A stretch of 64,000 nt of DNA from Procambarus clarkii (taxonomy: Eukaryota; Arthropoda; Malacostraca; Decapoda; Cambaridae). This document shows, piece by piece, positions 56,501 through 59,500 of the stretch; position 1 is the stretch's first letter, and each line of letters begins with the position of its first letter. A program made the translations under genes and the position numbers. The notes beneath the pieces are model-generated. The model ran no database searches and had not been told where the DNA came from. It was given only the letters and a program-made list of their open reading frames with translations. The stretch covers positions 27,488,479 to 27,552,478 of the forward strand of contig NC_091165.1 in the NCBI RefSeq assembly GCF_040958095.1, written 5' to 3'.

Positions 56501-59500
56501 CCTTCCCAACCATGTTAAAGACTGTACCTCTCTCAACCAGTTTAAGATAAAAACTAAACACTACCTAATAAATTCCCTGTAATCTACCTCACTCCTCTAT
56601 TGTCAACCCATGTCTGTTATTTTTTTTTTTTTTTTTTTTTTAATCAACACTGTTTGTCAACCTATTGTATTTGTGCTGCTTTTTCAGTCATGTTTCCCCC
56701 TTTTTTTTATCTTTATTTGTATTTGTTCTCAACATCTTTTATTCTTTATGCTCAATTAGTATTAAGTTCTAGATATTAATGTTTTCTTGCCCGAAACGCA
56801 TTGCGTAATAGTGGCTTTAGGCATTGTATGTACTAGATCTATCTATATATCAATCCATTAATGTAACATCACTTGTATGTATAATACATTTTGTGTTAAT
56901 TTTATTTTATTTTCCACTTCATCTCTAGTGAGGACATTGATAACATTATTGTTACAATATTTACAAATTTACTTAATATTGTAATAAATAACTTTAGTGG
57001 CATATTCATTTTACTCCCTTTAAATTAACTGAATTATAGAAACTTTTACTGATCAGGGGCAGAAACTGATGTTACTCCAGCTTTATGTAGTAAACAGTAG
57101 AATAAAACTGCATAAAGTATAAACAATCAGAGTGATATAATATAATTGTATTATATACACACCTTTATTTTCCAGTATCACTTCATGATCAACTTCTTCA
57201 CCTGGCACTTGTGCAAGCTCAAATATCTGTTCTGAATGTCCCCTTTCATGTTGGTGATCACCTTCCTTGTGCACATGTCCATGGCCCATGTCACCTTCCA
57301 AGTGCACATGTTCATGGTCCACATCACCTTCCTTGTGCATGTGTTCATGGCCCACATCACCTGCATTGTGCATATGTTCATGGCCCACATCACCTTCCTT
57401 GTGCATGTGTTCATGGCCTGCATCACCTTCCTTGTGCACGTGTTCATGGCCTACATCACCTTCATTGTGCACATGTTCATGGCTCACATCACCTGCATTG
57501 TGCATGTGTTCATGGCCCACATCACCTTCTGTGTGTGCATGTTCCTGGTCCACATCACCTTCCTTGTGCATATGTTCATGGCCTACATCACCTTCCTTGT
57601 GCATGTGTTCATGGCCCATATCACCTTCCTTGTGCATGTGTTCATGGCCCACATCACCTTCCTTGTGCATGTGTTCATGTCCCACATCACCTTCCTTGTG
57701 CATGTGTTCATGGCCCACATCACCTTCCTTGTGCATGTGTTCATGGCCCAAATCACCTTCCTTGTGCATGTGTTCATGGCCCACATCACCTGCATTGTGC
57801 ATGTGTTCCTGGCCTACGTCACCTGCATTGTGCATGTGTTCCTGGCCTGCATCACCTTTCTTGTGTGCATGTTCCTGGCCCACATCACCTTCACCATGTG
57901 TGTGTCCATGTTGCATCTCAACACCTTCATGCACATGATCAGGCTCAGGTTTGGAATCTGGCGTAGCCTTGGACTCGGACTCAGGCTCTGGTTCAGGCTC
58001 TGGTTCAGGATTGGGAAGTGGACCTGTATGGTGATGATCTTCATGATCCCCTACTTTGACTTTTCCAAGCACTGGATCACTGGATACATTATATCTGGTG
58101 TCATCTGTAAACTCAACTTCATTTATGATATTGGGATGTTTCTTCTCTTTCACTGGGCTACCAACAAATGCTCCTTCTTCCAAACCCAGAGAAGACTCTC
58201 CTTCCTTATTACCTAAGATGTTGGGGCAATGAAGCTAAAATTAGGAAAACAAGCACAAAATAATGTAAATAAAAAATATGACAATACAATATTTATTCCA
58301 GTTATACAACTACATCGGGCTAAAAGTCTTGATATTCAATTTAAACAAACCCAAAATAGAAGCCAGCAAAATATTTAGGTTCCTACCAAGTGAAATCCAG
58401 TACAAGCTTAGAGCAAATAAAAATATCAAAACATATTTAATAGGCTACTGTACTTGTCACCTATACAACTAACAATGATATTGTTTGTAACAATCTCTTC
58501 TAAAATACAAACATTAAATAAATCACCAACGTTTAGAATCTGAACTAGTATTTGAAAGAATATGATCTGTTAAAATCATGACAAACAAGGCTTGTAAGAC
58601 TATCAATAAATATTACTAATGCAAACTTACCTGGCAAAAGGTAAAAGCACACAACAAACAGGACTGCAATGACAATAGCAACAGCCAGTACAACAAGGAA
58701 CCCCACAATGATATCACGCAGCACCCGGCCTGGACGGAAAATGTTGGAGCAACAGGCTGAATATCGAGGATCAGGTTCCAAAGTAGTTCCACACATGCCC
58801 TCTGCATCGTCACCCTAAAAACAAAAAGCACATATATTGAAGTGGTACTAAGTTAAATATACCATATATAAGTCTGCATATGTCCAGTACAAGAGTATTT
58901 CAGTTATGTAATATACTGTCATGAAGGAAGCAAGACATGACAAGGCATGACAGCCTTAGTAAGACAATATATTTAACGTGTTAGATAATGCAAACTCCAA
59001 CGTTCTTGAAGAGGTCTAGAGGGAAACATGGAATCAATTTCATAGATCTATTATGTCCAACTGCTAAATGTGCTCATGCATGTTCATCAAAGGTGATACA
59101 CTATGTACCTTATAGCCATATATCTGTATTACAATGAAGAAAGGTTGGTTACGAACTGATTAAAATATAATGTAATAAGAAAAGATTTGCAGGTACTACA
59201 TGCACTGTCTACATGCACTGTCATTCTTGTCAGTTTGTAAACCTGGAAAACTATAGTTTAGCGGGCACGACAGGTTGGACCAATGATTGCCCTTCATACG
59301 CTCCTAACCTAAACAAAGTTCAGTTCTGACTATTGTACCTACAAATAGGCCTACCATAGAACTCAACAATATAATTTTATGTTCATTAAATATAGTGTAC
59401 CGAACTGGAATATTTTAATTTCTTAATGTGGATGAGATTGATACACTTATAGCCAATAAATTAATCTCCTGATACTGTGAATGATTGCAGCAAATAAGGC

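Follow-up and report, generated by a model that had tools for sequence, protein, structure and literature searches.

A histidine-rich tandem-repeat exon predicted to encode the stem of a corin-like Frizzled/LDLa protein in Procambarus clarkii

Insect corins are the closest described counterparts of the gene considered here. Honey bee SP30, an apparent orthologue of fly corin, is summarized by the domain string cc-LC-TM-Fri(ZnF)-LDLA-LC-LDLA-SR-SP (PMC1761132). As far as this string goes, SP30 shares with our gene model a type II helix, a single Frizzled domain and the order LDLa, low-complexity segment, LDLa (PMC1761132). Unlike our model, it continues into an SRCR and a serine protease domain within about 944 residues (PMC1761132), whereas the model spans 1702 residues without its N-terminus and additionally contains a histidine-rich exon. 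Frizzled domains, for their part, obey a ten-cysteine rule (PMC6938638).

The gene model was derived from a 64,000-nucleotide stretch of Procambarus clarkii DNA (the window) and rests on splice motifs, phase agreement and domain matches. Its ten exons, labelled A to J in the order of translation, have matching phases and form a single frame that opens with the first base of exon A, ends at the stop codon and encodes 1702 residues. The following features were assigned, all of them on the minus strand.

58631..58814, minus strand: exon A, short N-terminal segment and single membrane helix, phase 0 to phase 1 (splice sites, hydropathy)
57163..58212, minus strand: exon B, histidine-rich, 67 His of 350 residues
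57893..57958, minus strand: two diverged in-register units, DSKPEPDHVHE and GVEMQHGHTHG, preceding the array (register alignment, post hoc)
57266..57892, minus strand: 19 near-consensus 33-base units of the EGDVGHEHMHK type (Tandem Repeats Finder, frame translation)
57233..57265, minus strand: diverged last unit, EGDHQHERGHS (in-frame reading)
55866..56315, minus strand: exon C, low-complexity spacer rich in S, T, P and E, phase 1 to phase 1
55407..55531, minus strand: exon D, first part of the Frizzled domain (splice sites, Pfam)
55053..55170, minus strand: exon E, second part of the Frizzled domain (splice sites, Pfam)
54246..54362, minus strand: exon F, third part of the Frizzled domain (splice sites, Pfam)
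50865..50990, minus strand: exon G, LDLa module 1 (splice sites, Pfam)
47897..48511, minus strand: exon H, low-complexity linker and LDLa module 2 (splice sites, Pfam)
44898..46949, minus strand: exon I, LDLa module 3 and a linker of about 640 residues (splice sites, Pfam)
44299..44570, minus strand: exon J, degenerate LDLa and TAA stop (PF00057, 24.3 bits against a cut-off of 24.1)

Exons D to F, once joined, match the Frizzled family PF01392 over positions 1-109 of 110 (E 2.3e-19), and ten cysteines can be read directly in this domain. The LDLa family PF00057 matches three stretches (E 1.6e-29) and, as a borderline fourth, exon J. The module in exon J lacks only the fourth and sixth cysteines and is placed right before the stop. 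Since these two cysteines form a disulphide with each other in LDLa modules, exon J has lost one whole disulphide. The closest polyadenylation-like signal downstream of exon J is at 43631. Neither exon A nor exon C yielded any family in the Pfam scan.

The helix in exon A lies at about 58635-58715, with a hydropathy peak of 3.48 in a 19-residue window, and is preceded on its N-terminal side by the basic stretch RPGRVLRD. Because these basic residues come before the helix, we predict a type II orientation, which would put the stem outside the cell; a single-pass type II protein with an extracellular histidine stem is the natural prediction from this arrangement. A search for upstream coding stretches of 40 aa or more that reach a strict donor in phase 0 found none in the rest of the window or in the 60 kb beyond it, and a methionine within exon A may be the start of the protein. 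A sequence-only reading of this DNA had proposed the order transmembrane helix, histidine exon, Frizzled domain; all three indeed lie in a single frame with agreeing phases, and we regard it as highly probable that exon B belongs to the Frizzled/LDLa gene. That reading had also put the repeat on the extracellular side, which is a reasonable prediction from the basic residues N-terminal to the helix and is adopted here as such.

Other elements were observed in the window. A 555-aa open frame at 8692-10359 on the plus strand resembles, by eye, a LINE reverse transcriptase and contains FADDAKIM. A higher-order tandem array occupies 12781-19634, where blocks of 23-base and 25-base repeats recur every ~810 to 1034 bases, and a GGTTAGGTTAGGCTG array within the contig lies at 20684-20870; we take the latter to resemble the arthropod TTAGG telomere repeat. 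In the intron between exons B and C, the segment 56380-56850 (plus strand) could by eye be the 3' terminal part of a non-LTR element, with a frame that reads ...RMWNDLPNHVKDCTSLNQFKIKTK, and a Pfam scan of 56259-56579 in this intron region returned no match.

The gene model has several features of corin, namely a single N-terminal membrane helix (predicted type II), a ten-cysteine Frizzled domain and LDLa modules after it. It stops, however, at the TAA that follows the degenerate LDLa and does not run on into a protease. SRCR had no Pfam match in the gene model exons, and an SRCR cysteine pattern had no match on the minus strand of the window and of the 140 kb beyond its left end. A loose SRCR tryptophan pattern gave 15 matches in the same DNA, none convincing by eye; both patterns covered unsplit motifs within the window and these 140 kb. 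The trypsin-type protease active-site motif was absent from the window, and the fetched flanks contained a few isolated short protease motif matches with no protease-like surroundings by eye. As the gene model ends at a stop and the DNA searched held no convincing SRCR or protease motif, we do not file the gene as a corin protease. The earlier designation as corin-like thus stands for the order of helix, Frizzled domain and LDLa modules and fails for corin as a protease: the predicted product is corin-like in its front half, and assignment to the corin proteases is not established. Membership of the MFRP family, which the same reading had also considered, is not borne out, as MFRP carries CUB domains and CUB had no Pfam match in the scanned exons of the gene model.

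Exon B is a single exon of 1050 bases that runs from phase 1 to phase 1, as judged by splice motifs, between an acceptor ...CATCTTAG| and a donor |GTGTGT read in the window. It equals exactly the interval for which the repeat had been claimed, and it lies on the minus strand. Its translation comprises 350 residues including the split first codon, with 57 Glu and 30 Asp besides the histidines. Tandem Repeats Finder, which returned 72 rows for the whole window, describes the array at 57257-57892 with a period of 33, 19.3 copies, 88% matches, 1% indels and a score of 911. Within the open frame 19 units follow one another, diverged in-register units flank both ends, and the reading frame is kept through all units. 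The expectation of about 20 EGDVGHEHMHK-type units of 11 residues is therefore well matched by 19 near-perfect copies plus the diverged end units. Dozens of HxHxH triplets had been announced, too many by our count: exon B contains 16, whereas 2000 shuffles of its residues gave 2.3 on average and never more than 9. The shorter motif HxH occurs 39 times (shuffles: mean 12.5, maximum 22).

Openness of the array frame is in itself little proof of coding, because 33 is a multiple of 3 and other frames are open too; the plus strand across the array is also open, for up to 326 aa. Strand and frame of exon B are instead fixed by its splice phases, which match those of the neighbouring domain exons, and antisense coding of the array was rejected as the minus strand is the one on which the splice sites and phases agree. 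Several database matches of exon B were likewise discarded. The Pfam match to Trypan_PARP (20.8 bits, cut-off 100) and the NCBIfam matches to ClfB, TonB and SslE (18.7, 16.1 and 11.4 bits; cut-offs 999, 315 and 3000) are due to a PEPEPE stretch, and the sole match to a solved structure, 6jku (E 0.89), is attributed to chance.

We tentatively propose an ion-responsive function for the predicted stem. In a single-pass type II protein with Frizzled and LDLa domains, exon B would account for the larger part of the stem outside the cell, as a long, probably disordered chain in which a three-histidine motif set among acidic residues recurs about 19 times. Such a stem would most likely act as a multivalent tether that responds to ions. 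It would be strongly negative and extended at body-fluid pH; binding of Zn, Cu or Ni through HxHxH, or protonation near pH 6, would cancel net charge and let the stem compact, which in turn could change how far the Frizzled/LDLa head reaches or how it clusters. The sequence itself shows the gene anatomy, the repeat and its composition; the surface topology, the binding of metal, the compaction and any effect on the head are what we infer under this proposal. The calculated net charge of a 20-unit array is about -36 at pH 7.4, -14 at pH 6.5 and +1 at pH 6, using textbook pKa values and an assumed value of 6.5 for histidine, and metal binding by HxHxH would shift the charge in the same direction as acid. 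The histidine-rich region of histidine-rich glycoprotein is described as altering its charge through Zn binding or protonation (PMC5372734). By this analogy, a metal or pH response of the exon B stem appears chemically plausible. AlphaFold2 applied to exon B alone gave a mean pLDDT of 45.7, with 0 of 349 residues at or above 70; this low confidence fits disorder without proving it. A more far-reaching version of the proposal, which we consider rather improbable, is that a non-protease Frizzled/LDLa protein related to the front half of corin gained a polyhistidine-acid tether gated by metal or acid, so that ligand capture by the Frizzled domain would depend on extracellular Zn/Cu or pH, for example in moulting, mineral handling or acid-base stress.

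The repeat was also searched against its own genome, where 150 of 2135 candidates were scored and 15 matches were obtained among those listed. Six of these 15 are the exon B array itself; the other nine rows have E values of 5.9e-6 to 8.6e-4. The two loci that we examined, L007 and L008, account for three of the nine rows and were chosen as best matches from 4 Gb, such that some likeness is expected by selection. L008 (1000-1789) is a 33-base array with 24.1 copies and 1% indels; its frame reads EGSVGHRPVYP, without HxHxH, and at the best rotation its unit shares 19 of 33 bases with that of exon B, a value reached by 24 of 5000 shuffles. L007 (1485-1854) is an AC-rich 33-base array with 11.4 copies and 8% indels. 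In one of its frames three PGDIQHTHIHT units occur, whose histidines occupy the same positions (6, 8 and 10) as those of the exon B unit, before the frame drifts; further on, the text of this frame resembles, by eye, a reverse transcriptase. The best blastn E value between exon B and the two loci was 0.019. These arrays show that 33-base arrays, even with the same histidine spacing, occur in this genome outside any recognisable gene, and the L007 spacing, which has no visible gene context, implies that such spacing can arise without a role. Re-inspection of the two loci has accordingly shifted the odds slightly away from the ion-responsive stem, in which our confidence is a little lower than before, and strengthened the explanation considered next.

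About as likely as the ion-responsive stem, and like it a reading that we would not go so far as to call probable, is that exon B carries a coding minisatellite, in which a 33-base unit has grown by unequal crossing-over within a tolerant, disordered stem that serves as a spacer, with any metal affinity incidental. The unit length keeps the phase, adjacent units share variants across their borders (N then A), the window holds many tandem arrays, the neighbouring exon C is of low complexity too, and L007 and L008 are 33-base arrays as well, the former with the same histidine spacing in three units. The distinct variants over the 19 units are near-neutral in composition, with 5 silent and 16 amino-acid-changing against 16 and 80 possible (P 0.38), hence give no overall sign of purifying selection on the array; variability is higher at third codon positions, though not significantly so (P 0.076), and reading the array in its other frames yields similar silent and changing counts. 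The histidines themselves speak against mere tolerance. Positions 8 and 10 are His in 19/19 units, the codon at position 8 varying silently (CAC 12, CAT 7); at position 6, 15 units carry His and the other 4 Gln. Only 1 of the 16 distinct amino-acid-changing variants falls in the His columns against 24 of 80 possible (hypergeometric P 0.016, one of three tests and uncorrected). Both diverged upstream units, in a register alignment made after the data had been seen, keep His 8 and 10 with most other residues changed, and the nearer one, at 18/33 DNA identity to the consensus, also has His 6; the last unit is down one of its three histidines (HRH). Outside units 1-20, the 130 remaining exon residues include 11 His, 5 of which belong to the two diverged upstream units. 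Moreover, the frame of exon B is intact at 1% indels as opposed to 8% and a drifting frame in L007, with L008 also at 1%. The evidence for selection on the array is thus mixed, with constraint on the histidines suggested by the sequence.

Two further explanations are less probable than either of these. Exon A could normally be spliced straight to exon C, so that exon B, whether a cassette that is skipped or seldom included or an exon inferred in error, would not be part of the usual protein. Phase 1 at both ends means that the frame would survive such joining, and the donor GTGTGT deviates from GTRAGT; we nevertheless hold this to be unlikely, given an acceptor and a donor that are both at the correct phase and 1050 stop-free bases in the frame shared with exons A and C, of which 423 lie beyond the 19 units. 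The array could also fold as a beta-solenoid whose alternate histidines stack in ladders holding a row of metal ions, histidines at alternate positions being expected to share a strand face. AlphaFold2 placed 13 strands, mostly one per unit, over exon residues 113-249, yet pLDDT in this block was at most 61 and pTM 0.34, in a prediction made without an alignment. AlphaFold2 is reported to produce unrealistic beta-solenoids for perfect repeats (PMC11795689); we reject the strands as a likely artefact of this kind and consider the solenoid highly improbable.

If expressed, exon B would insert a polymer that binds metal and protons between the membrane anchor and the Frizzled/LDLa head of the protein, a pairing absent from the literature listings searched. 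The gene could represent a corin-like ectodomain without protease and would then bear on what such heads do alone. Even as a merely tolerated minisatellite, exon B would illustrate clearly how a repeat can grow within the stem of a receptor, and it would probably serve as a marker that varies in length. A search for exon B relatives in prokaryote genomes and viral contigs gave 8 and 6 pattern matches, respectively, with none confirmed. Nothing relevant appeared among the titles listed for corin or Frizzled with His-rich and crustacean, and five short stretches of the repeat unit letters retrieved 0 papers.

Among known histidine-rich proteins, histidine-rich glycoprotein has, like the predicted exon B stem, tandem His-rich repeats outside the cell (PMC5372734). 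Its unit is GHHPH-like and present 11 times in the human protein (PMC5372734), whereas the exon B unit EGDVGHEHMHK is acidic and without Pro. It is moreover a plasma protein, and the exon B protein a predicted membrane protein. Histidine-rich glycoprotein has cystatin domains; cystatin had no Pfam match in the gene model exons. Histidine-rich calcium-binding protein and domain 5 of kininogen have repeats in which His occurs alongside acidic or Gly residues, as in exon B, but both are luminal or plasma proteins without Frizzled or LDLa domains. From its sequence, we rate the predicted crayfish protein as a known head architecture borne on an unusual stem.
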